Part shown: in pieces, positions 30,799-43,364 of the stretch
Layout: each line of letters starts with the position of its first letter
How positions within the stretch are numbered: the stretch's first letter is position 1
Source of the DNA: Acidobacteriota bacterium
Lineage (GTDB): Bacteria > Actinomycetota > Acidimicrobiia > Acidimicrobiales > RAAP-2
Assembly: GCA_018970215.1 (NCBI GenBank)
Contig: JAGWWX010000004.1
Span: forward strand, 1 to 52,690
DNA: 52,690 bases
Direction: 5' to 3'
Program-made: the position numbers and the translations under genes
The notes under the pieces: model-generated
The model's database searches: none
What the model was told of the DNA's origin: nothing
The model's input: only the letters and a program-made list of their open reading frames with translations

Positions 30799-31191
30799 CT
30801 ACAGCGTAGGAGGATTTCGGACATCCACACGTGGGGGCCGATGAGGTTGAATTACCCATTTGACGTGATGAAGGGGAACGGGACCAAAGGCCCGTGAATC
30901 CCGCGACGCCTCACGGTGGTCGCCGACGAGGACCAGTTCGACACTGCCGAGCCCGACGCGCACCTCACTCACGCGCTTGACGAGCTCTCGCGTAGGGACC
31001 TCTGGATCCGAACACACCACGACGTCGCCGACCCGCAAGGAGCGAGGAATCAGGACTCTTCGTACCGCCCACAGATATTCGCCCGGTGCATACGTGGGAG
31101 TCATGCTGGACCCCTCGACGCGGACACGACGCACGAAAGGTGAAAAACATCGGACGAATCCCGCGAGGGCTCGTGTCGCTAATCTGACCAT
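30799..31191 (-). CDS. sodX: Nickel superoxide dismutase maturation peptidase (S26 family)
   Basis: 130 aa from ATG 31191, preceded by AGGAATGAGGTC. It is a short signal-peptidase-like serine protease. Ser29 in VEGSSMTPTYAPGE and Lys72 in ELVKRV form the expected Ser/Lys dyad, and GDHREASRDSRAFGPV is the C-terminal conserved box. It lies head-to-head with sodN, and in known systems SodX removes the SodN leader to expose the nickel-binding histidine. A clear transmembrane anchor is not seen; residues 8-20 are only moderately hydrophobic. Confidence 0.9.
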   Translation of the reverse strand: MVRLATRALAGFVRCFSPFVRRVRVEGSSMTPTYAPGEYLWAVRRVLIPRSLRVGDVVVCSDPEVPTRELVKRVSEVRVGLGSVELVLVGDHREASRDSRAFGPVPLHHVKWVIQPHRPPRVDVRNPPTL

Positions 31192-31243
31192 GACCTCATT
31201 CCTAGTCGAGTCCCGACGGGAAACAACGGCGAAAGGTAGTCCC
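31192..31243. promoter_or_regulatory. sodX/sodN divergent promoter with an 11-bp palindrome
   Basis: A 52-bp region between two divergent starts. On the minus strand a -35-like TTGTTT (31221-31226) and a -10-like TAGGAA (31199-31204) are 16 nt apart. The perfect inverted repeat TCCCGACGGGA at 31211-31221 sits between them, a good place for a repressor. On the plus strand AAAGG at 31232-31236 is the sodN ribosome site. Promoter assignment is by eye only. Confidence 0.35.
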
Positions 31244-31654
31244 ATGACCATATTGCAGCGAATCACCGACGTGATTAACGCCACCGCAGATCCGGTTCAC
31301 GCACACTGCGACCTTCCCTGTGGTGTCTACGACCCGGCGCAGGCGAAGTTGGAAGCGCAGTCTGTCAAGGCCTGCATGGAGAAGTACGCCGCGAGCTCCG
31401 ATAACGACTTCAAAGTTCGAGCGACCACCATTAAGGAAGAGCGCTGCGAGCTGGTAAAGCACCACCTCTGGGTTCTGTGGACGGACTACTTCAAGCCCGA
31501 GCACGTCGCCGCACACCCCAGCTTGCACGACCTCTTCTGGAAGGCGACGAAGTCGGCCGGTGAAGCGAAGAAGACCAATGACGTTGCTGTGGCCGACCGA
31601 CTTCTCAGTGAGATTGACGCCATCGCCGAAATTTTCTGGGCCACCAAGAAGTAA
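31244..31654 (+). CDS. sodN: Nickel superoxide dismutase precursor
   Basis: 136 aa. The nickel hook HCDLPCGVYDPAQA starts at residue 21. After removal of a 20-residue leader, His1, Cys2 and Cys6 would bind nickel and dismutate superoxide. The remainder is the four-helix bundle (HHLWVLWTDYF). The start is ATG 31244, with AAAGG 7 nt upstream; an in-frame ATG at 31190 would make an implausible leader overlapping sodX. The leader is longer than the 14 residues I recall for Streptomyces. A strong hairpin follows 12 nt after the stop. Confidence 0.95.
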   Translation: MTILQRITDVINATADPVHAHCDLPCGVYDPAQAKLEAQSVKACMEKYAASSDNDFKVRATTIKEERCELVKHHLWVLWTDYFKPEHVAAHPSLHDLFWKATKSAGEAKKTNDVAVADRLLSEIDAIAEIFWATKK

Positions 31655-31666
31655 GTCGCACTACGT

Positions 31667-31705
31667 AGCAAACTGCCCCCGGGGTTTCCCCGGGGGCAGT
31701 TTGCT
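31667..31705. terminator. Perfect 18-bp hairpin terminator between sodN and the acyltransferase gene
   Basis: The arms at 31667-31684 and 31688-31705 are exact reverse complements, separated by TTT. The stem is GC-rich at the loop end and A/T-rich at the base. The 3' flank on the plus strand (GTTGT) is only moderately T-rich. It lies between convergent genes and could serve both strands. Confidence 0.85.
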
Positions 31706-31712
31706 GTTGTAC

Positions 31713-32942
31713 TTACGACGTCCAATAACGACCCAGCAGATATGCCGTCAACCACACCAAAGAAATCATCACTATCGCGAAAACTGCCGTGAGCCACGGT
31801 CGGCGATCGAGCCATACCGAACGCCGGATGGGATTTTCAAAGAATCGATAGCTCAGTGCGGCGCACAGAGTGGCGGCGGCAATCTGCTCCACGCGAGCGA
31901 GCGGCGACAGCGAGGTCATCACGCCGTACTTAATCTGTGCGTACTGCTCGGGGAGTTTGAGCCACGCCCAGTGAAAGAGATAGAGCGAATACGAAATATC
32001 GCCGATATAGCGAAGTGGTTTCGTCGCAAAGAATCGTGACGGCGCAAACGGAAGTGTGGCGCTACCGAAGAACAGCAGCGCTCCTGCCGGTGCGCAGGCC
32101 CACCACGTCAACGTCCCAGGAACCAAACTTGAGTCGGTCAATGTGTACGCCGCCGCCACGATGATGGCGAGTGACAACCAACCGACGAAAGTCGCTACGC
32201 GTGCATTGATCGTTCGCCAACTCGTCGGTAGCGCGGCGAGGAGTGCGCCCAGTCCAATCTCCCAGAAGCGAGTCTTCGGAGAAAAATAGGCGTAGGGACT
32301 CCCGGTGGTGAGCTGAGCGCTTTCGTACGCTGACCACGCCACAATGAGGGCGAGAACGCCTGAGAGGGCCACTCGATGACGACGGAGTCCCACCACGGCC
32401 GCCGTCAGCAAGAGGAGAAGCGGGACGACAAAGTAGAACTGCTCTTCGACTGCGAGGGACCAGTAGTGCGTGATCAGAGATGGAGGGAGACCCTGGGAGA
32501 AATAGTCCATGCCGACCGTGATGAAGTGAAAGTTCACGCGAAATGTTGACGCCCAGCGAAGATCCTCGAGCAACGGAATGGAAGTGAACGGTCCGAGGTA
32601 GTAGTACGCCGTCAACACCGTGCCAATCATCACGAGAGTGGCCGCTGGCATGATGCGGCGGATCCGACGGGTATAGAAGCGACCGAGGATGGCAATAGCT
32701 GATGTCAGTCGTTGGTCCGACTGAGCCATCGAGAGGGACTCACGGAGCAGAAGCTCAGTAATGACAAAACCCGAGATCACAAAGAAGACGTCAACTCCGA
32801 TGTACCCACCGGCAAAGTGAGGCACCTTTGCGTGGGCAATGATGACCAAGATGACCGCGAGGGCGCGCAACCCCTGGATATCCGGACGAAAGTGCTGCTT
32901 CTCGGATTCGACGTATCGCGACGTTTCATCAAGTACGTTCAC
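31713..32942 (-). CDS. Acyltransferase 3 family membrane protein (OafA/YrhL type)
   Basis: 409 aa with about ten hydrophobic helices. RPDIQGLRALAVILVIIAHA, GGYIGVDVFFVISGFVIT and HYWSLAVEEQFYFVVPLLL are the defining motifs of the acyltransferase 3 family, which O-acylates cell-surface sugars or lipids. There is no C-terminal SGNH hydrolase domain. The GTG start shares one base with the stop of the zinc-finger gene upstream (TAGTG), so it appears to be the last gene of the lectin operon. A glycan or surface-polymer substrate is plausible but not shown. Confidence 0.9.
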   Translation of the reverse strand: MNVLDETSRYVESEKQHFRPDIQGLRALAVILVIIAHAKVPHFAGGYIGVDVFFVISGFVITELLLRESLSMAQSDQRLTSAIAILGRFYTRRIRRIMPAATLVMIGTVLTAYYYLGPFTSIPLLEDLRWASTFRVNFHFITVGMDYFSQGLPPSLITHYWSLAVEEQFYFVVPLLLLLTAAVVGLRRHRVALSGVLALIVAWSAYESAQLTTGSPYAYFSPKTRFWEIGLGALLAALPTSWRTINARVATFVGWLSLAIIVAAAYTLTDSSLVPGTLTWWACAPAGALLFFGSATLPFAPSRFFATKPLRYIGDISYSLYLFHWAWLKLPEQYAQIKYGVMTSLSPLARVEQIAAATLCAALSYRFFENPIRRSVWLDRRPWLTAVFAIVMISLVWLTAYLLGRYWTS

Positions 32943-33133
32943 TACGCCTCTCCCATCTGAGGATGCGCCGCGCAGGATGTGTAAAGCGGATTCGCCTCAA
33001 GAACATCACGGGCAATCTCGGCTCCGCAGGACACGCATCGGCGGTATGTCCCGTCGGCTAAACGACGCATAGCCGTGGCGACGTCATCCAAGGTTTTTTC
33101 TATGTGGGCGACAGATTGGTTTTCGTTTGACAC
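32942..33133 (-). CDS. Small DksA/TraR-type zinc-finger protein
   Basis: 63 aa. The N-terminal half is a helix (IEKTLDDVATAMRRLADGTY), followed by RRCVSCGAEIARDVLEANPL and TSCAAH. This is the DksA/TraR C4 finger layout with the last cysteine replaced by histidine (C3H). Such short relatives bind RNA polymerase or lack an assigned role. The GTG start lies 9 nt after the stop of the giant FN3 gene, and the stop overlaps the acyltransferase start. Confidence 0.8.
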   Translation of the reverse strand: MSNENQSVAHIEKTLDDVATAMRRLADGTYRRCVSCGAEIARDVLEANPLYTSCAAHPQMGEA

Positions 33134-33142
33134 GCGTCGAGC

Positions 33143-36100
33143 CTACGAGGTCTGGTGGGTGTAAATGAGGTACACCACCATGTTGTCGCGGGCGACGAGA
33201 TTCCCATCACTGGACACATCGGCAAACGATGGCGCACCAATCATGTCTTGGAAGTTCGAGAGGGCTGAACTCGTTCCCGTCGAAAGGTTCGTCGCCAAGA
33301 TGGTGTAGCGGTTATACGCGGGGTCGTACTCGTAGTTGTAGAGATAGCCATCAATCACAGCCCGTCCCTGCCAGTTAATTCCTGGAACATTGACTGACGT
33401 CAGCAACACATCACCATTGGTATCTACGCCGTCATAGCGATGAAGAATCATTTCGCCGCTGCGGTCAAAGAAGTACAGCTGCCCGTCGTTCGATGGGACT
33501 AGGTAGGAATAGTTGTATCCCCACATAGTGGTACCCGGCAGGAGAGACGACTCTCCAGAGCTCAGATCGATGACTGTCAGGCCATAGAAGTTGGATACGA
33601 CGACCGAATTTTCACCGTAGAGAGCAATCGAGTTGGCGCAGTTCGTAGCCGTACTGGCGAGGTACGTCGTGTCGCCCGTCGCCGACACCACCAAGATGCC
33701 GGTGTCGAACCAGTAACTGCCGTAGCCCGTGGTGTAGTAGACCACGGAATTGTCCGCACGTGCCACACTGCCTCCGACACTGACGTTCTCCGGCAGAGCC
33801 GTGGTGGTGTCGAGCGTGAACGTAACGGCGCCATTGAGAATTCGCACAATGGTGTTGCCGCTGTGATACCAGACTGCGCCGTCCGGTGTCACTGAGGCGG
33901 AGTACGGCCACGTGGGAATGGATGCAACGGCGCGATAGTTACTGGCTTCATACTTGTCGGCTGTCGTCACGGTCGTTGAGGCGCCCCCGCCCATTCCGCT
34001 CCACCATCCGTAACCCTGAATCGTGACGCGATACTCGGTGGACGCCGTGAGGCCACCAACGCGGCACGTATTCACTCCCGGACCTTCGAGCGAACGACAC
34101 TCCGTGACGTAGGTCCCGTCCATTGTCGAGATAGTCATCTGTGAGAACCACATCGAACCGTACGTTTCGGTACTCGTCCAGGTTCCCGTTACTTCATTAC
34201 CGAACACCGAGAGAGAGACCTTGGTGATCTGCACGTACGGATCCCCGGGCGTAAAGAAGACCTGTGCCGGAGTCGCACCCCAGTTGTTAATAGCTTCCAG
34301 CACAACTCGGTAGTTCTTACCAAGAGTCATCCCCGCGAGCCAGCTAGACGTTTGCCACCATCCACACCACCCCTGCCATGTCAACGTCTCGGTCCCGTCG
34401 GCGTTTTGGAGATAGACCGACAAGCGATATTCGCTCAGACCAACCTCGGCGGTGTTATCCGGTGCTGTCCACGTGGCCTGGAAACCAGCTAGTTCATTTC
34501 CCGAAACCGCAAAGTCGGTAGCGGCGTGCAACTTCGGTGCCACAACGTCGAGCTGGCCGATCGCTACGACGTTCGCCTCCGCGGACCGAACGTCACCCGC
34601 CATACCGCCGTACTCAATAAATCCCGCACCCCACGTCGTGGCGCTCATGTCGTTGTAGCAGTCGTTCGTGCCCTGCATGAGTGTCGATTCACTCATTGCC
34701 CAGTTGTTCGGTTCGTAGTAGCAGAAACTCGGCACGAATCCATTGACGCCAACGCCGGTACCCACAACACCGTTGCCTCCTGGTCCCGACATCGCGGCCC
34801 CTTGAGCGAACTGCGTACCAGCCAAAGGACCGGCCACGATGAACCACTTTTGGAACGACGCCAGTGGGTCAGACTGGTAACCCTCAGTCCACGATGTGGT
34901 GGGGTCGTTATTGGCGTACATGTAGGAGAACTTCAGGTCTCCCGTGACTGGGTCACGAATGTACGCCGGGTCGTCCGTTATCGCCATATAGAACTGGCTG
35001 GCGTAGCCGTAGAGAAATTGGTACTGCGCAAGGGTGAGCGGGGCCGCCAAGTATCCCTGCATGCCAAAGAGCGAGTACTGCGACGCGGCCGACAGCACGG
35101 TCCCGAACGTTCCCCAATTGGACATCAACTGCAAATAGTGATCCGTTGCGGGATTGTAAAGAATGTTGTTCGGAGTCGCAATGACGTACAACTTCATGGG
35201 CAACTGAGACGAGTCCGGGCGAATTTCGAGGTTGGCGAGGTCGTGATTAATGGACTCTTCGGACCCTTCCAATACCATGACGGGTCGTCCGCCCCAGTAG
35301 TTCATGCAGTAGGTGCCGCACGTCTGTCGCCAGTTCGGCCACGACAGTCCGACAGTGCCGTGCGTGACGTAGACGCTCACCATCCAGTTCGGAGGCAGGT
35401 TGGAGACCGATATCGGGAGACCACTCGTTGCGGCCGCTGAAATCAAAGTTGATGTCTCTGGCTTCAGTGACGAGAACACCGCCGGAACACTGACGGACGG
35501 CTGCGAGGTAGTACAACTCCCGATCACCAGGGCCGCCGAATCTCCCGCTGCGTTCGTGGCCACGACGGCGGCGCTGTACGACACGCCCTCGGTCAAACCT
35601 GTCACGTAACACGTCGGCGTACCGGCATCAAAAGTCGTCGGACCAGATACCGCCGACGTCGTGCACGAGTGAGCCGTACCACTTTCGTCCGTCACCGTCA
35701 TCGTGTAGCTCGTGATTGGCGCATTGAGACCCGCGAACTCGGACGGGTTCCAGCGGCCTTGCACCCAGGTCGCACCCCACGTGTACACCGTCCCCCACGT
35801 TGGCGTCGATGGCTGGGGCGTTTGGGGCATCGCGGAATATCCCGTTTTCAGGATTCGATGGGGCCAGACATCCGTGTCCAGTGGCAGTGCCTGATTATTG
35901 ACGGTGTAGACCGATGCGATGTACCCGTTGAGGTCGGAGACGTACGTCCACGTGTTATGCACCGTGTCAAAGGTCGCGTACCGTCCCCAGCAGTCAGATC
36001 CAATGTAGAGAACATCGTTGGCGTCGAACGCCAGACGGTACGGTGAACAGAGATCGCCGTACCACGTCACGTTGTAGGTAGCGCCAGAGATCCCATCAAA

Positions 36101-39100
36101 AACATTTCCGTTCACCACACCGACGGCGCCGCTGCAGATGTCCGACACCCACACGCGGCCTGCACTATCGATTGCCACACCGTTAATACAGTCAGCGCCG
36201 TTTAGGAACTTGTTCTGCCACTCTCCGGCAACGTAGTCATACACGTGGAGGAACCAGTTATCGGTCGCAAATACTGCTTCACCGTTCGGACCCATCGCCA
36301 TCTGATGCCCCGAGCCACTGTCGTTGTAGCCCATATTGGTGACTGAACCATCAGCGGCAACGTAGAAGATGTCGCTGCAGCTGTTCTGGACGTAGATACC
36401 GCCCTCGGGTCCGGGCAGGATATCGATGATGGCGCAGTCGTAACCGTACGTCGTCGAAATCGTGGCCGACGAGAACGTTTCCTGCAGGTTCGGATCAGAG
36501 CCCACGAACCCAATCCAGTTGTCGTACGCAATCCACCCCGTTCCCACGTGACGAATCACGTTGGGGTTCGGGAGGTTGACACTCGCACTACTACCGGACT
36601 CGCCCGCAGCGTTCACTGCTACCACCGACACGCTGTACATCACAAAGTTGGTGAGATCCGTAATGGTGCACGAATAGAGAGTCGGTGCGACGTCACACGA
36701 ACCAGCGAGACCACCACCCGGCGCGTAGGCGTACGCCACGTAACCGGTAATCGCACTGCCACCATCGGAGTCAGGTGCCGTCCAGTACGCAGTAATGGCC
36801 GACGTAAGAGCGACAACTGAAATATCGTTCGGCATCGACGGAGTTGTAAACGGTGTTTGATCTAGCTCATTCGATGGGTCGGAATCACCTACATCGTTCG
36901 TGGCCACGACCGAGACCGTGTAGGACGTTCCATTAGAGAGACCCGCGACCACACATGACGTTGCCGACGCGGCGGCCGAGCAGGTGAAGAGCGTTCCTTT
37001 CGCGTCGAGCGCGTACACCGTGAATCCGGTAATCGCGGAGCCGCCGTCCGCACCCGGAGTCCACGTCACGAGGAGTGACGCATTACCGGTGATCGCACTC
37101 ACCAGTGTGGGTGCACTCGGGGCAGCAATAGCGGGGGTTGGCGTTCCCAAAGTGACGGTTGACGCCGGCGACTCACCCGCATTATTCAAAGCGACCACCG
37201 AAAGTGAGTAGGTCGTGCCATTTGTTAGTCCGGTGACGATGCACGTGAGCTTGGACGTCGTGCAGGTAAAGACGCCGCCATCGCCGTCATCGGCGGTCAC
37301 GGTGTAGGAGTACACCGCTGACCCACCATCGCTCACCGGCGCCGACCACGCCACTTCCAGTGTTGCGTCGCCTGATGTCACGAGCACCGACTGCGGAGCA
37401 CTCGGAACCGCATAGGGCGTCGCCGAGGTGGCGTTCGACGCGGCGGAGTTGCCCTCGGAGTTCGTCGCTACAACCGTCACGACGTAAAGCACGCCATTGG
37501 TGAGTCCAGAAACGGTGCACGTCGTCGACGTCGTCGTGCAGGTAAAGACCCCGCCATCACCGTCGTCGACCGTCACGGTGTATCCCGTCAACGTCGTGCC
37601 GCCCAGCGTTGCCGGGGCCGACCACGCAACAGCCAACGAGCCATCGAGAGAAGTAACGGTATCGAGCTTCGGAGCTCCCGCGACAGTTGCCGGAGTTTCC
37701 GACGACGACGCGGAGGGAGAGGAGTTGCCAGTGATATTCGTCGCGACCACGGTCACTGCGTACGACGTTCCGTTCACGAGACTGGTAATCGTGCACGACG
37801 TCGTTGAGGTCGTACACGATCGTGTGTGCCCCGCGCCGTCATCCGCCGTTGCAACGTAGGACGTAATTGCTGATCCACCCGTCACGGCGGGAGCCGTCCA
37901 GCTCACTACCAACGAGGAGTTGCCCCGTGTGACAACGAGAGACGTCGGACTACCGGGAACGTCACCGGGTGTTCGCGTTAGCGCCGACGACGCTGCAGAA
38001 TTACCGGCCCCATTACTCGCCAACACAGTGATGGAATATGACGTTCCGTTCGTCAAGCCGGTAACTGAACAGGATGTTGTGGCCGTCGTGCACGTGAATT
38101 CACCGCCGCTGCCGTCGCGGGCATAGACGGTGTACCCCGTCAACGCACCACCACCGTCACTCGACGGAGGAGACCACGACACGGCCACGGAGCCAGACGA
38201 CGCAGTCGCCGTCACCGATAAGGGAGTGCCCGGAGGGTTGTACCCCGTTGTCACCGTTGAGCTCGGCGTTGCCGCAACCGAATACCCCGCGCTGTTGTGT
38301 GCGAAGACACGAATGGCATACGTAGTCGTTGTTGCGAGACCCGACAACGTGCACGTTCGGGTCACAAGGTCCGGATGACAACGAGAGATAAAACGGTTGG
38401 TTGATGCCACCAGCGCTACGGCCAGATAGTCGTCAATAACGGATCCACCGTCACGTGTCGGGGCATCAAAGCTCACGCCAATTGATTCGGGAGCGGGGGC
38501 CGCCACCACGTTCTGCGGCGCACTCGGTCTGTCAATTACGGTGACCGAACTACTCGATGTCGATGGATTCGACGTACCAGCCGCATTGGTTGCGGTGACC
38601 GAAAACGAGTACGCCAGACCGGCGGTGAGATCCGTAATCGTGCATGACGTCGATGTCGTTGAACACGTCTGACCCCCTGGCGACGCCGTGGCGGTGTAAC
38701 TGGTGACGGGCAGTGAGGGACTCGAGGACGGCTGCCACATCACTCGGGCGTGAAGGCCAAAGGCCGCAACAACAACGCCAGTTGGCGGTGTCGGAGCTTC
38801 CGCTCGAGGCGTTACCGTCACCGGTGCCGAGGGCAGTGACATACCGGTGGTTCCCACCGCGTACACGGACAACGTATAGGTCACGTCGTTGGCGAGACCA
38901 CGCACCACGCAGGAAGTTGTCGTGACGATGCACGTCGCATTATTGGGCTTTGCGATGACGACGTAGCGCGTCGCACCCGTCACACTCGACCAGTTCACCA
39001 GCGCCGACGAGTCACCGGCGGTCGCCACCACGTTCGTTGGTGCCGGAACCACAGCGTGGGGCCGCAGTGGGACGGAGTGTGGCGCACGGGAATTCAACTT

Positions 39101-39193
39101 CCCTCGGGAGTGACGCGTCACTGCGCCGGCCGGCGAGACGGTGGCCAACGCCAGACCTAGTACCGCAACCCACGCAACGATCCGGCGCGTCAT
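33143..39193 (-). CDS. Giant secreted FN3 / beta-propeller-like / C-type-lectin-like surface protein
   Basis: 2016 aa from ATG 39193, which overlaps the upstream stop as TGATG. A signal peptide occupies 1-24 (RRIVAWVAVLGLALATVSPA). Nine FN3 repeats of about 92 aa follow (about 51-877). A repeat-rich propeller-like region spans about 880-1120. A tenth FN3 domain is at about 1125-1230, and a bacterial Ig/cadherin-like repeat at about 1235-1340. A C-type-lectin-like domain is at about 1345-1530 (YYEPNNW, NDCYNDM, FIEYGGM). Two further FN3-like domains (about 1555-1745) and a second propeller-like region reach the C-terminus. No LPXTG or C-terminal anchor is seen, so it is probably released or held by a partner. 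Many FN3 repeats carry a close cysteine pair. Adhesion or glycan binding is inferred. Confidence 0.85.
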   Translation of the reverse strand: MTRRIVAWVAVLGLALATVSPAGAVTRHSRGKLNSRAPHSVPLRPHAVVPAPTNVVATAGDSSALVNWSSVTGATRYVVIAKPNNATCIVTTTSCVVRGLANDVTYTLSVYAVGTTGMSLPSAPVTVTPRAEAPTPPTGVVVAAFGLHARVMWQPSSSPSLPVTSYTATASPGGQTCSTTSTSCTITDLTAGLAYSFSVTATNAAGTSNPSTSSSSVTVIDRPSAPQNVVAAPAPESIGVSFDAPTRDGGSVIDDYLAVALVASTNRFISRCHPDLVTRTCTLSGLATTTTYAIRVFAHNSAGYSVAATPSSTVTTGYNPPGTPLSVTATASSGSVAVSWSPPSSDGGGALTGYTVYARDGSGGEFTCTTATTSCSVTGLTNGTSYSITVLASNGAGNSAASSALTRTPGDVPGSPTSLVVTRGNSSLVVSWTAPAVTGGSAITSYVATADDGAGHTRSCTTSTTSCTITSLVNGTSYAVTVVATNITGNSSPSASSSETPATVAGAPKLDTVTSLDGSLAVAWSAPATLGGTTLTGYTVTVDDGDGGVFTCTTTSTTCTVSGLTNGVLYVVTVVATNSEGNSAASNATSATPYAVPSAPQSVLVTSGDATLEVAWSAPVSDGGSAVYSYTVTADDGDGGVFTCTTSKLTCIVTGLTNGTTYSLSVVALNNAGESPASTVTLGTPTPAIAAPSAPTLVSAITGNASLLVTWTPGADGGSAITGFTVYALDAKGTLFTCSAAASATSCVVAGLSNGTSYTVSVVATNDVGDSDPSNELDQTPFTTPSMPNDISVVALTSAITAYWTAPDSDGGSAITGYVAYAYAPGGGLAGSCDVAPTLYSCTITDLTNFVMYSVSVVAVNAAGESGSSASVNLPNPNVIRHVGTGWIAYDNWIGFVGSDPNLQETFSSATISTTYGYDCAIIDILPGPEGGIYVQNSCSDIFYVAADGSVTNMGYNDSGSGHQMAMGPNGEAVFATDNWFLHVYDYVAGEWQNKFLNGADCINGVAIDSAGRVWVSDICSGAVGVVNGNVFDGISGATYNVTWYGDLCSPYRLAFDANDVLYIGSDCWGRYATFDTVHNTWTYVSDLNGYIASVYTVNNQALPLDTDVWPHRILKTGYSAMPQTPQPSTPTWGTVYTWGATWVQGRWNPSEFAGLNAPITSYTMTVTDESGTAHSCTTSAVSGPTTFDAGTPTCYVTGLTEGVSYSAAVVATNAAGDSAALVIGSCTTSQPSVSVPAVFSSLKPETSTLISAAATSGLPISVSNLPPNWMVSVYVTHGTVGLSWPNWRQTCGTYCMNYWGGRPVMVLEGSEESINHDLANLEIRPDSSQLPMKLYVIATPNNILYNPATDHYLQLMSNWGTFGTVLSAASQYSLFGMQGYLAAPLTLAQYQFLYGYASQFYMAITDDPAYIRDPVTGDLKFSYMYANNDPTTSWTEGYQSDPLASFQKWFIVAGPLAGTQFAQGAAMSGPGGNGVVGTGVGVNGFVPSFCYYEPNNWAMSESTLMQGTNDCYNDMSATTWGAGFIEYGGMAGDVRSAEANVVAIGQLDVVAPKLHAATDFAVSGNELAGFQATWTAPDNTAEVGLSEYRLSVYLQNADGTETLTWQGWCGWWQTSSWLAGMTLGKNYRVVLEAINNWGATPAQVFFTPGDPYVQITKVSLSVFGNEVTGTWTSTETYGSMWFSQMTISTMDGTYVTECRSLEGPGVNTCRVGGLTASTEYRVTIQGYGWWSGMGGGASTTVTTADKYEASNYRAVASIPTWPYSASVTPDGAVWYHSGNTIVRILNGAVTFTLDTTTALPENVSVGGSVARADNSVVYYTTGYGSYWFDTGILVVSATGDTTYLASTATNCANSIALYGENSVVVSNFYGLTVIDLSSGESSLLPGTTMWGYNYSYLVPSNDGQLYFFDRSGEMILHRYDGVDTNGDVLLTSVNVPGINWQGRAVIDGYLYNYEYDPAYNRYTILATNLSTGTSSALSNFQDMIGAPSFADVSSDGNLVARDNMVVYLIYTHQTS
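34604..35161 (-). other. C-type-lectin-like domain inside the giant protein
   Basis: Residues about 1345-1530 of the 2016-aa protein. The order WFIVAGPLAGTQF, then EPNNW, then NDCYNDM, then GFIEYGG follows the bacterial C-type-lectin pattern (W-x-GP-GT-F, EPN, DC, WND, EYGG). Calcium or glycan binding is not proven. Confidence 0.6.
36563..39043 (-). repeat. Nine tandem FN3-coding repeats of about 276 nt
   Basis: This stretch encodes nine consecutive FN3 domains (residues about 51-877). The best-matched neighbours are repeats 6 and 7, which share DDGDGGVFTCTT at positions exactly 276 nt apart (37567 and 37291). The others are diverged at DNA level, so the array is mostly old, with some recent duplication or gene conversion. 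Confidence 0.85.
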
Positions 39194-42100
39194 CAGATCA
39201 ACCTGCCCGTGAGCTGGAGTGCCGTCGCGACAACTACAACGACACCCGCCAGACGCGTCGCCCACGTCACTGGGTAGTCCTCACCGTCGAATGCCGAGAC
39301 GGCGGCATACAGAACATTGACGACCGCCATGAGAATGAGCAGTCCCGCGACCTGCCAAAAGCCGTCACTCGACAGCGTTGCCATCCACCGCCCGCCGAGG
39401 GTACCGATGGCGGCCATCACCCCGATGTTGGCGACCCCGCGGGGAATGGCACGATAGAGCGGCGTCGGCAGCGAACCACGCACCCAGCCACCCACTGACC
39501 CTTGAGCAATCTGCAAGACAACGAGTAGAGCGAGTACCCACGTCCACCCTAAGAATGCGTGCAAGAGAAGAGCAGTAAACACTTGTCGCAACACATGCGA
39601 TGCGCGATGCGCCCACGCGCGCTGTTCATCGAGGTCGATAGCGGTCACGGTCTCCAGGCGCTGGGGAAAATGAAGAGTCGAAACCGTCGACAACACGTAA
39701 CGCAATAACAGCGCCAGGCCAACGAAGAGACCAACGGTCGACGCACTGTGAACAATTGGGAGTTGGAGTCCGGCCGCCGACTCAGACGCACCGACGAGCT
39801 GCGTAGACAAAAATGCTCCAAAGAGGGGACCAATCACCATGTCGCCTGCTCGTTTCCACCGATCGTGGAGCGTCGCTAACTCCAATCGGATGAGTGGGCG
39901 TATCTGTTTCACGATGATGGCCGTTCCGAACAGCATGGCGGCCATTAGCGAAAAACTCACCAGCATCCCGAGAGAGAACATGTGGCCCGTCAACACACCC
40001 GCCAGCAAAGTAACGACGGTTGCCGTGAGCCCCGCCCAACCATCCAGTGCTCCACAGATCATCATGATGGTGAAGGGAACAAGGTGTCCGGGCGCGGGAT
40101 ACCCGTGCGTCTCAAGTGCATTAAAGACTGCGGCAGCTCCTCCGGCGATGGGCAGTACCAACGACGCGGAGCCAAACATTGCGCGTAGATACGACCCGTC
40201 TTGCACGCTCGACGCAATCATCGGACTAATCGGCGCAATTTTTCGTGGCCACTGAGAACTCACACGGTCCACCACACTGCGGCCGGGCAACTGCCACCAG
40301 CGCGAAGCGTCGCCTCGCCCAATGTTTTCGTGCACGGTGTCATCGAGTGCGGCACCAATCTGCTGAGTTGACATCGGGCCACTCGAACCACCCGACGAAC
40401 TGCCGCCGCCCGCCGAAGAGGGCGACGAACCACTCGCCATCGGTCGCGCCGCCACTCCACCACCGGTGGGCACCCGCACCGCCCCGACCGATCCAGCAAC
40501 ACTGGCCGCCACCGACGCAGTCGCCGCCACGGTGGCGGCGACTGCAACCAGGTTCGTGACCTGTTTCATGGTCTGCTCTGGATGCTCGGTCGGCACGAGT
40601 GGGGGCGCCTGCAAAACATCGTTGGCGCTTCCCGCCACGGTCGTGGTCGTCACTGCCTTGGCGTTGATATCGATGTACGACTTGGCGAAATTGTTCGGAT
40701 TGGTTTCGTCGATCGCCGTCATCACCAGTTGTGACTCTGGTTCGAGACGTGACAGCAGTGACGTCGGAATCGCGGTAGACGCTGTGACGGAACCATCGGC
40801 GCTCGCCGTTGTCGTCGCGGCGAGGTAGGTGCCCGCGATCACCAATTTGTGCGACTGACCGGCGTACGAGGCCGGAATCGGAACGTTCAATGTCACCACA
40901 CCGTTGACGTCCGCGATACCTGTTGCGAGCACGAGTGGCGTGGAGTGAAGAACCGTCGAGACGGTACTGCCTGGCACAAACCCTGACGATGTCATCGACA
41001 ACACGAAATACTGACCCGTGCCGGGAAAACCACCGAATGGAAAGGCGATGGTGTTGCCAGTGGAAAGGTCGGACGGCAAGGTTGCCGACGCCACGATGGT
41101 TCCTTGAACGGCCGTGTTATTCGTCGAGGGAGCGAGAAGTGTTGACCACGCCGTTGGGTTCGTGGAGGGCGGGATGGTGAATGTTCCGAGGGTTTCGCTT
41201 CCGGTGACGGCAATATTCACGTTGGACCCTGGCGTGAATCCACGCCCCGTCGTTTGAACAACGGGATCGGATGTTGGATCCGACGGTGGTTGCATCAGCA
41301 TGGAGACATTGCCATTGGTCCCCGTGCGAGGTCCGCCCGCTTCGGGTGGCAAGGTCGTCGTGGACGGCACAATATCGACGGAACTGGTGACAACGGGAGC
41401 GGTGTAGTTCGTGGACGCGACGCGAACAGTCACCACGTAGGAACCAATCGACGTTGGGGCAACGGGGGAACATTGAGTAGGCGAGGTCACGGGACAGTAC
41501 GAAATGCTGATCGGCACCGACGCGGGAGTTACGTTTGGTGTCACGGGATGTGCGAGACCGTCGGTGACGGCCGACACGCTCGCTACTTTGATGACTGCCG
41601 GTGCCGGTGCCACAACAAGGCTGCGCACGACGGGCGTTGCGGCGGCGTAGGACAATGTTCCCGACTGCGTCGCCGTCACAGTGCATAGGCCGGCGGACAC
41701 GAAGGTCAGTTGGTTGCCGACCACGGCGCAACTTCCCGTCGCCGTGAAGACGACCGGTTGGCCCGACGTAGCCGAGCCCACTAGTGTCCGCGAACCGGCA
41801 CCAAAGATCGCCGGTGCGAGAGCGCTAAACGTGATTGATTGTGACTGTGCCGCGACTGACGACGTCATGGTCGCGGGCGACGACAAGCCCACGGCGTTTT
41901 GGGCGACGACGGAAGCGGTGTACGTATCTCCGGCGGGCACCGCAGTAATGGTGCAACTCAACGTTGGACTACTCAGGGATGCGGGCGAACAGGATTCGCC
42001 ATCCAACATGGCGGTGTAGCCCGTGATGGGACTGAATCCGTCACTCACCGGCGCGGTCCAGCTCAGAGTTGCGGTCACGAGACCATTCGTCGGCGCCGAC

Positions 42101-43152
42101 CACTGCACACCAAGGTTGCGTGGAGACGAAGGAGCAACCGGTGTAGCGGCCACGACAGCGGCTCGCAGATTGCGCAGACTCATCACATCGAAGCGTGACG
42201 ACGTTGAGGCATTCACCGCCGAGACTCCCATGCGCAGGGTGGAGGGCACTGTCGACGACGGCCATGCCCACGTCGGTAACGCGATGTCGAGAACAGTCAC
42301 CAGACCGCGGCCATCGCCACTGTCCACTGCAACCGTAAGTTCAGCTAACGATGATGTGAAATTTGGTGGCAGGACACTGACAAAGAAATGTTGCCAGCCG
42401 GTGGAGGGGTCCGCCTGGTGTAGTGGGCCGACTGTCTTCGTAGACGTCGCCAACGCACCGAAGGGTTGAGCAGTTGACGAGACGAAGCAGTACCCCGATA
42501 GTCCGCGGCCAGAACTCGTGTCGCCCGCTCGCACGACGACTTGATTTGCGGTCGAAGTGGCGGAGTTCCATCCGACCGCAGGACACGACGCAGAATTGGT
42601 TGATGCCGCGTCACCCGCAGCGTCAAACGTGATACCGAGAACGGCACCGGGGAGTCCACCGGAAGTTTCGCCGTATCCGCCAGCGATCGCGGAAGAGGGA
42701 ACTGTTGGACTCGTGACCGAGGAATCTACGATCCACAGTGTCCTCGCCCCGCCACCGCCGCCATATGACTGAGAGTCAAACTCAGCGTAGAGAGCGCTTG
42801 AGGACGGAAACGTTTGCTGAACTAACACTCCTGATGCATTGATGCTGGACGAAGTGGTATCCGTTAAAAGAATTTGCGCGCCCTCACCGTCGTCCACCAC
42901 TCCGGATGAAGGGGAACACGAATTGGTCCCAGCCGCAATAGACGTCAGGCAGGGCAGACTCGCCGTGGAGCTAGTGGGGGTGAGAAATTTCACGGTGGAG
43001 GGAACCGACACAGCGTCGCCAATCGATTCCGAAATCAACGTCGTCACGCCGCTTCCCGTGGGCAGGGCCGAGGCGGAACCAGGTAGCCCGACAGCAAAGA
43101 ACGGTGAAAGCACGAGTGAAATTGCGGCGATGGGTCGCCAGGGGAACCCCAC
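39193..43152 (-). CDS. L-type-lectin-domain protein fused to a polytopic membrane module
   Basis: 1319 aa from GTG 43152, which has an AGAGGTG ribosome site just upstream; an in-frame GTG seven codons earlier is less likely. Signal peptide at 1-30. An L-type (legume) lectin-like domain spans about 40-335 (LYAEFDSQSYGGGGG, GGLPGAVLGITFD). An FN3 domain (about 340-435), a bacterial SITF-type repeat (about 438-515), an MBG-like domain (about 518-595) and two GFxPGS Ig-like modules (about 625-830) follow. Next come a hydrophobic alanine-rich segment (about 865-890), a Gly/Ser linker (about 900-926) and, unusually, nine or ten transmembrane helices from about 990 to the end. I do not recognise the membrane module. 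It is first in the operon and translationally coupled to the giant FN3 gene. Confidence 0.8.
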   Translation of the reverse strand: MGFPWRPIAAISLVLSPFFAVGLPGSASALPTGSGVTTLISESIGDAVSVPSTVKFLTPTSSTASLPCLTSIAAGTNSCSPSSGVVDDGEGAQILLTDTTSSSINASGVLVQQTFPSSSALYAEFDSQSYGGGGGARTLWIVDSSVTSPTVPSSAIAGGYGETSGGLPGAVLGITFDAAGDAASTNSASCPAVGWNSATSTANQVVVRAGDTSSGRGLSGYCFVSSTAQPFGALATSTKTVGPLHQADPSTGWQHFFVSVLPPNFTSSLAELTVAVDSGDGRGLVTVLDIALPTWAWPSSTVPSTLRMGVSAVNASTSSRFDVMSLRNLRAAVVAATPVAPSSPRNLGVQWSAPTNGLVTATLSWTAPVSDGFSPITGYTAMLDGESCSPASLSSPTLSCTITAVPAGDTYTASVVAQNAVGLSSPATMTSSVAAQSQSITFSALAPAIFGAGSRTLVGSATSGQPVVFTATGSCAVVGNQLTFVSAGLCTVTATQSGTLSYAAATPVVRSLVVAPAPAVIKVASVSAVTDGLAHPVTPNVTPASVPISISYCPVTSPTQCSPVAPTSIGSYVVTVRVASTNYTAPVVTSSVDIVPSTTTLPPEAGGPRTGTNGNVSMLMQPPSDPTSDPVVQTTGRGFTPGSNVNIAVTGSETLGTFTIPPSTNPTAWSTLLAPSTNNTAVQGTIVASATLPSDLSTGNTIAFPFGGFPGTGQYFVLSMTSSGFVPGSTVSTVLHSTPLVLATGIADVNGVVTLNVPIPASYAGQSHKLVIAGTYLAATTTASADGSVTASTAIPTSLLSRLEPESQLVMTAIDETNPNNFAKSYIDINAKAVTTTTVAGSANDVLQAPPLVPTEHPEQTMKQVTNLVAVAATVAATASVAASVAGSVGAVRVPTGGGVAARPMASGSSPSSAGGGSSSGGSSGPMSTQQIGAALDDTVHENIGRGDASRWWQLPGRSVVDRVSSQWPRKIAPISPMIASSVQDGSYLRAMFGSASLVLPIAGGAAAVFNALETHGYPAPGHLVPFTIMMICGALDGWAGLTATVVTLLAGVLTGHMFSLGMLVSFSLMAAMLFGTAIIVKQIRPLIRLELATLHDRWKRAGDMVIGPLFGAFLSTQLVGASESAAGLQLPIVHSASTVGLFVGLALLLRYVLSTVSTLHFPQRLETVTAIDLDEQRAWAHRASHVLRQVFTALLLHAFLGWTWVLALLVVLQIAQGSVGGWVRGSLPTPLYRAIPRGVANIGVMAAIGTLGGRWMATLSSDGFWQVAGLLILMAVVNVLYAAVSAFDGEDYPVTWATRLAGVVVVVATALQLTGRLI
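42148..43035 (-). other. L-type lectin-like domain
   Basis: Residues about 40-335 of the 1319-aa protein. AEFDSQSYGGGGG, the GGYGETSGGLPGAVLGITFD stretch and the later HFFVSVLPP and ELTVAVDSGDG strands follow the legume-lectin jelly-roll order. In the family, the aspartate of AEFDS and the following loop form the sugar/calcium site. Confidence 0.6.
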
Positions 43153-43288
43153 TCTTTCACCTCTTTCACACACTCAAAGAAACTACGTTTCGGTGCAAGA
43201 AGTCTAGGAAATTACGAACTCTTGGTCTAGTGCGCCAAAAAAGAGCCTATTTTTTAGGGCTTGTGGCGGACCAGACTACGATTTCTCC
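43153..43288. promoter_or_regulatory. Intergenic region upstream of the lectin operon and of tRNA-Lys
   Basis: At 136 bp this is the longest gene-free stretch in the window. It must drive the lectin operon leftward and tRNA-Lys rightward. It contains an A6/T6-rich inverted repeat (43233-43268). A -10-like TACGAT at 43277-43282 lies just before the tRNA. No convincing -35 was found for either side. Confidence 0.45.
43237..43261 (-). terminator. Hairpin plus T6 tract on the minus strand, terminator or attenuator
   Basis: 43244-43249 pairs with 43255-43261 (six pairs, one bulge) around a short A/T loop. On the minus strand it is followed directly by CTTTTTT. Orientation suggests it stops leftward transcripts before the lectin operon, either antisense read-through from the tRNA/trx side or the operon's own leader. 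The stem has only four GC pairs, so strength is uncertain. Confidence 0.4.
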
Positions 43289-43364
43289 GGGCCGCTAGCT
43301 CATCGGGAAGAGCAGGAGACTTTTAATCTCAAGGTGCCGGGATCGAGACCCGGGCGGCCCACCA
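43289..43364 (+). tRNA. tRNA-Lys (anticodon TTT), CCA encoded
   Basis: The acceptor stem GGGCCGC pairs with GCGGCCC, followed by A and an encoded CCA (43362-43364). The D-stem is GCTC/GAGC, the anticodon loop is CTTTTAA, and the T-stem is CCGGG/CCCGG. Two departures from the canonical form are visible: a G-A mismatch at the first anticodon-stem pair (27-43) and an ATCGAGA T-loop in place of the usual TTC start. The next gene starts 14 nt after CCA. Confidence 0.93.

Follow-up and report, generated by a model that had tools for sequence, protein, structure and literature searches.

Described lectin systems and the lectin pair of the window

Bacterial secreted lectins such as Cbeg4 and Cbeg5 are described in PMC9166713 as proteins with a signal peptide, an FN3 spacer and a carbohydrate-binding domain, in which one FN3 is combined with a carbohydrate-binding module. 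Other lectins with which the present proteins can be compared are the C-type lectins (e.g., mannose-binding protein and collectins) and the L-type lectins (e.g., legume lectins and ERGIC-53). We analyzed a stretch of 52,690 nt (contig JAGWWX010000004.1, positions 1-52,690 of GCA_018970215.1; hereafter the window), which carries two giant lectin-like genes, designated G1 and G2. The G2 protein shares the general layout of Cbeg4 and Cbeg5, but its FN3 stretches number 10, its lectin domain is C-type and its gene is coupled to that of a membrane partner (G1). Like the C-type lectins it matches at the profile level with EPN and ND motifs, although the G2 domain is bacterial, is missed by Pfam Lectin_C and lies inside a secreted protein of 2016 to 4279 aa. 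Residues 52-339 of G1 were modeled as a beta-sandwich as in L-type lectins, whereas this domain lacks a Pfam or PDB sequence match and is combined in one protein with a polytopic membrane module as well as FN3-like repeats. In the literature searched, on FN3 and lectins in freshwater Acidimicrobiaceae and on bacterial L- and C-type lectin adhesins, we found no system of such composition, which does not prove its absence.

The original prediction had joined G1 and G2 with the two genes that follow them into one operon dedicated to the recognition and modification of surface glycans. The principal features are as follows.

39193..43152, minus strand: G1, 1319 aa, with a secreted start, an L-type-lectin-like domain, an FN3/MBG-like region, a hydrophobic segment and a polytopic membrane module
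39191..39195, minus strand: TGATG, stop-start overlap of G1 and G2
33143..39193, minus strand: G2, 2016 aa, a secreted giant with FN3 repeats, propeller-like regions and a C-type-lectin-like domain
33140..33145, minus strand: TAGGCT, predicted -10 element of the zinc-finger gene, the first three bases of which are the G2 stop codon
32942..33133, minus strand: zinc-finger gene, 63 aa, DksA/TraR-like, outside the lectin unit
31713..32942, minus strand: acyltransferase 3 gene, coupled to the zinc-finger gene in four genomes, outside the lectin unit

The four minus-strand genes, their overlaps, the 9-nt gap from G2 to the zinc-finger gene and a terminal hairpin were all found where the original prediction had placed them. 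Nevertheless, we think it rather probable that they are two units standing head to tail, namely a G1-G2 surface glycan-binding pair and a zinc-finger unit that neighbors the Ni-SOD gene, and not one conserved system. In essence, the genes are real and two lectin folds are supported, but the four-gene system is not, and the operon was over-drawn.

The window comes from a metagenome-assembled genome of 1.54 Mb in 119 contigs (G000; other three-digit G numbers denote relatives). Comparisons were made with 119 relatives, with 99 genomes of the genus and with 396 genomes drawn from the phylum.

Promoter signal and neighbors of the zinc-finger gene

At E<=0.001, 105 of the 119 relatives gave matches to the zinc-finger protein, of which the weaker are perhaps other DksA-like proteins. 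Compared with the four-cysteine zinc finger of DksA/TraR, the protein reads CxxC and CxxH, with a Pfam score of 16.8 bits that is below the cut-off of 24.9, and its match to TIGR02890 (E 2.5e-9) is likewise under the cut-off of that model. The coiled coil with acidic tip of DksA/TraR was not found in this protein of only 63 aa, in which the DksA-model matches cover the C-terminal finger part. Upstream sequences were read for 31 loci from 30 genomes (G015 twice, and one locus without a start left out), and every one of the 31 had a TANNNT 12 or 13 bases before the zinc-finger start, whereas 1000 shuffles gave 0.6 on average and 4 at most. For leaderless genes, PMC3160421 reports signals of this kind some 12 bases upstream, and PMC3898074 gives TANNNT as the mycobacterial -10 element. 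The zinc-finger gene has, as judged from these sequences, a conserved putative leaderless promoter signal of its own.

We then counted the neighbors of the zinc-finger gene in its 30 best loci, which come from 30 of the 105 genomes with matches. Ni-SOD was found in 25, the acyltransferase in four (G000, G063, G015, and G051) and G2 in only one, which is the window. The four genes are thus not adjacent and co-directional in relatives, and the two blocks lie apart in G528, G039, and G015. In G528, where the region from G1-G2 through the zinc finger is complete on one contig, the order is G1, G2, a phosphoribosyltransferase gene (opposite strand), a secreted Cu-monooxygenase-like gene, a VOC-like gene (opposite), tRNA-Lys (opposite), the zinc finger and Ni-SOD, with no acyltransferase at the zinc-finger locus. 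G039 has a similar order (genes named by eye), with an additional AbrB/PIN-like pair; here the region is split over two contigs, each of which breaks off within G2, and these presumably join there. In G015, a divergent ABC transporter (solute-binding protein by Pfam, the rest by eye) is upstream of the zinc-finger/acyltransferase pair, while G1-G2 are elsewhere, after an alcohol-dehydrogenase gene. The same divergent transporter arrangement was found in G063, where the acyltransferase is beside the zinc finger without any lectin match in a genome that is only 65% complete. In G051, the visible 34 nt before the zinc finger are identical to those of G015. The zinc-finger and acyltransferase genes belong to a neighborhood that is separate from, and older than, the lectin pair.

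The direct abutment of G2 and the zinc-finger gene could conceivably be an assembly error. It is seen in the window's genome alone, which is fragmented into many contigs, the contigs of G051 and G015 end inside G2, and FN3 repeats are hard to assemble. However, G2 of the window ends about where that of G039 does, the join leaves the -10 element of the zinc-finger gene intact, and the pair is near the zinc-finger locus in G528 and G039 as well. A chance join inside repeats would not coincide with the end of a gene. We consider such an error extremely improbable. Read-through from G2 into the zinc-finger gene is likely in the window because the 3' end of G2 abuts the zinc-finger promoter.

Acyltransferase, hairpin and the proposed four-gene operon

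The acyltransferase 3 assignment was confirmed (PF01757, 87.9 bits against a cut-off of 31), and its gene is linked to the zinc-finger gene by a TAGTG overlap. Downstream are the hairpin that had been taken for the end of the operon and the Ni-SOD gene.

31665..31703 (approximate limits), no strand: perfect hairpin between the convergent acyltransferase and Ni-SOD genes
31190-31654, convergent with the acyltransferase gene: Ni-SOD gene (PF09055, E 8.1e-43)

The hairpin, with a stem of 18 perfectly paired bp (z -9.3, with 0 of 200 shuffles folding as well), lies between the stop codons of the two genes. In relatives too, a hairpin follows Ni-SOD: by a crude measure without shuffled control, at least 8 unbroken paired bases were found after the Ni-SOD stop in 24 of 26 loci and at least 12 in 20 of 26.

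A single four-gene transcript, in which the acyltransferase would act on the glycan bound by the lectins, draws on the 9-nt gap and the TAGTG coupling in the window, on the presence of an acyltransferase 3 domain and on SGNH and glycosyltransferase genes that adjoin the lectin pair in G528. However, the zinc-finger and acyltransferase genes have no lectins with them in G063 and lie apart from the lectin pair in G015, opposite-strand genes break the arrangement in G528 and G039, the zinc-finger gene has its own conserved predicted promoter, and the hairpin goes with Ni-SOD. Separation of the genes in relatives is also what the original prediction had itself named as evidence against a dedicated system. 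We consider one transcript of this function very improbable.

Several observations nevertheless weigh against our own reading. The lectin pair is upstream of the zinc finger and in the same direction within about 4.2 kb in G039 and 2.5 kb in G528, and therefore the neighborhood is not random. There is neither a terminator nor space between G2 and the zinc-finger gene in the window, so that all four genes may share a transcript there. Next to G1 in G528 is an SGNH protein, a domain that commonly accompanies acyltransferase 3, and this keeps a link to glycan acylation conceivable. Lastly, the L-lectin model of G1, described below, is of low confidence. On balance we retain the reading of two end-to-end units. 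A tidy-looking operon of one genome can be composed in this way, with the stop codon of G2 doubling as part of the promoter of the next gene.

Coupling and glycan-gene surroundings of G1 and G2

G1 and G2 share one base within TGATG, and the G1 stop overlaps the G2 start in all five genomes in which the junction is visible (window, G051, G015, G039, and G528; the contigs of G051 and G015 are those ending inside G2). The two genes are a translationally coupled pair, and a rare one, with five clear cases among the 99 genus genomes. Upstream of G1 in G528 is a gene for an SGNH protein of the type that is fused to acyltransferase 3, together with three glycosyltransferase genes, and this order recurs in G039 (by eye). 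Such surroundings agree with a setting of surface glycans and with part of the original prediction, but a four-gene system that recognizes and modifies glycans is not supported. From the surroundings in G528 we propose a surface glycan-binding pair.

Two features were located upstream of G1.

43201..43206, minus strand: TAGACT, candidate -10 element of the G1-G2 pair (by eye, without statistics; likewise upstream of G1 in G051 and G015)
43289..43364, plus strand: tRNA-Lys (ttt), divergent neighbor upstream of G1

An alternative GTG start at 43173 would give a protein of 1326 aa. TAGTTT is found at 43180-43185, and because it lies 12 bases ahead of this GTG, G1 may be a leaderless gene with a product of that length. 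Beyond the tRNA-Lys are thioredoxin and FMN-dehydrogenase genes. Foreign origin of the pair was considered from base composition, and GC contents of 60.7% (G1) and 59.2% (G2) against 59.9% for the window gave no sign of it.

The secreted FN3/C-type-lectin protein G2

The original prediction of a secreted FN3/C-type-lectin protein was borne out. The starts of both G1 and G2 are signal-peptide-like, FN3 was detected in G2 at E 6.5e-116 in 10 stretches, and a crude scan found neither LPxTG nor a hydrophobic segment after the signal. The lectin region is located as follows.

34589..35086, minus strand: C-type-lectin-like domain of G2, approximately residues 1370-1535, containing EPN and ND motifs, by a 3-sequence profile

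As a single sequence this region matched no family in Pfam (including Lectin_C) or NCBIfam and gave only unrelated matches in a PDB scan. A profile built from the G2 region of the window, G039, and G528, in contrast, matched mannose-binding protein in the PDB at E 1.2e-4; 20 of its 21 matches at E<=10 were C-type lectins, the remaining one being an anti-CRISPR protein. The EPN and ND columns are invariant in all three G2 proteins, and we take these motifs to be marks of mannose-type calcium sites.

When the second half of G2 served as query, seven of the 119 genomes matched, but strongly only the window's genome, G051, and G039 (the other four 1.1e-5 or weaker). The protein of G528, encoded on one contig, reaches 4279 aa. 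A long helical-looking repeat stretch is found in G2 of G528 (L207:1-12006) and G039 (L131:10308-19799) and is absent from that of the window.

Lectin domain and membrane module of G1

The L-type lectin that had been predicted in G1 is supported at the level of the fold.

42136..42999, minus strand: L-type-lectin-like domain of G1 (model residues 52-339), by Foldseek and VIA on an AlphaFold model
40495..40551, minus strand: single hydrophobic segment of G1 (residues 868-886), preceding the linker to the membrane module
39196..40335, minus strand: polytopic membrane module of G1 (residues 940-1319), a family without a Pfam model

Neither a Pfam scan of the N-terminus nor a PDB sequence scan gave a useful match, the former having none at E<=5. 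The AlphaFold model of residues 1-351, which has low confidence (mean pLDDT 50.1), matched peanut lectin best in Foldseek (E 1.7e-6), and the best 50 of 85 matches at E<=0.001 were all L-type lectins. VIA aligned 200 residues of the same model at 3.8 A (Z 13.3), with L-type lectins among the matches listed. This N-terminus was found in six of the 99 genus genomes; five of the matches are strong and span the full length, and that of G007 is weak and partial.

A multi-span membrane anchor had also been predicted, and the polytopic module, with a mostly helical AlphaFold model (pLDDT 81.2), agrees with it. Pfam and PDB sequence scans gave no useful match for the module. Its family is present in 19 of the 119 relatives and in seven of the 396 genomes of the phylum set (own genome counted), and a contig scan gave two loci, both in genomes already represented. 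In 15 of the 17 forms with a C-terminal module, a hydrophobic segment scoring above 1.5 on the Kyte-Doolittle scale lies about 100 residues ahead of the module, although the charge pattern around this segment is clear in some members of the family only. The module is N-terminal in four members, of which the one scanned, from G000, has an NHL propeller after it, and proteins of 435-499 aa in G282 carry the module without a lectin.

Conceivably, G1 could be a receptor or transporter and not an adhesin, whereby lectin binding outside the cell would be coupled to a sensing or importing module and G2 would serve as a soluble collector of glycans. The size of the module far exceeds the needs of a plain anchor, the family is kept without the lectin in the forms just described, and the best VIA rows are mostly substrate-binding ECF S-components. 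The likeness to the first helices of S-components is nevertheless weak (Z 7.6 over 143 residues, below the chance level of about Z 13 that VIA states for helical bundles) and not significant for helical proteins; the module lacks a sequence match to them and differs by extra helices and a lectin ectodomain. Furthermore, Foldseek gave no PDB match for the module model at E<=0.001, and no transporter partner genes were noticed beside the module. We regard this alternative as unlikely. Its bolder form, a new kind of bacterial glycan receptor in which an L-type lectin would be joined via one transmembrane segment to a signaling or importing module of an undescribed family, with G2 as its co-made ligand collector, is quite improbable.

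tRNA-Lys interval and tRNA-Lys repeats

The zinc-finger gene and tRNA-Lys are diverging neighbors, and the interval between them ranges from well under 100 bases (e.g., G018, G039, and G528) to 10 kb (window 33133-43289) and is empty or filled by an ABC transporter or the lectin pair (loci compared: window, L128, L129, L131, L133-L136, L139, L140, L142, L079, L090, and L207). That the lectin pair is pure mobile cargo, placed at random between the two, was considered and dropped, as the pair is near the zinc finger and in the same direction in G528 and G039. In G062 and G054, integrase-like genes overlap tRNA-Lys or come after it (L129:12037-13362 and L134:15092-15664; by eye).

The 3' half of tRNA-Lys is much repeated in the genus. 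Its last 38 bases (<=3 mismatches) occur in at least three copies, intact gene included, in 23 of the 99 genus genomes and in none with a reversed control. The highest number is 16, in G058 and G523, and G000 has one. The sites considered are given below.

window 43289-43364: tRNA-Lys
G022:C8 (L190-L192): tRNA-Lys repeat site
G028:C57 (L044, L193, L194): tRNA-Lys repeat site
G009:C96 (L043): tRNA-Lys repeat site

Along 45 kb of G022, the intact gene is succeeded by nine partial copies, all in the same direction and separated by accessory modules. These resemble the additive genomic islands with tRNA-Lys repeats that PMC10872708 describes in Methylopumilus. In G028 and G009, distant relatives of the G1 module may be island cargo, since they lie within about 300 bases of a tRNA-Lys fragment (L044:9116-9153 and L043:3089-3127).

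Proposed role of the lectin pair

The two giant genes probably make one membrane-anchored and one secreted sugar-binding protein. G1 would place its L-type lectin outside the cell, held by one transmembrane segment and the polytopic module, whereas G2 would be secreted and would present its mannose-type C-type lectin domain on FN3 spacers and propeller-like regions. As anchor or receptor, G1 would be complemented by the long reach of G2, possibly through contact of the two proteins, and the pair would bind polysaccharide on particles, algae or other cells and so mediate adhesion. The second unit would consist of the zinc-finger gene, joined by the acyltransferase in four genomes, with Ni-SOD as neighbor and its own leaderless promoter. 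Attachment, with putative glycan binding, is the most likely role of the pair. The G1-G2 pair and the unclassified membrane-module family come from small freshwater-type Acidimicrobiaceae, a family name borne by both named relatives. A rare lectin pair of new composition and an unclassified module family are, on the sequence evidence, candidates for the attachment of these bacteria to particles or algae.

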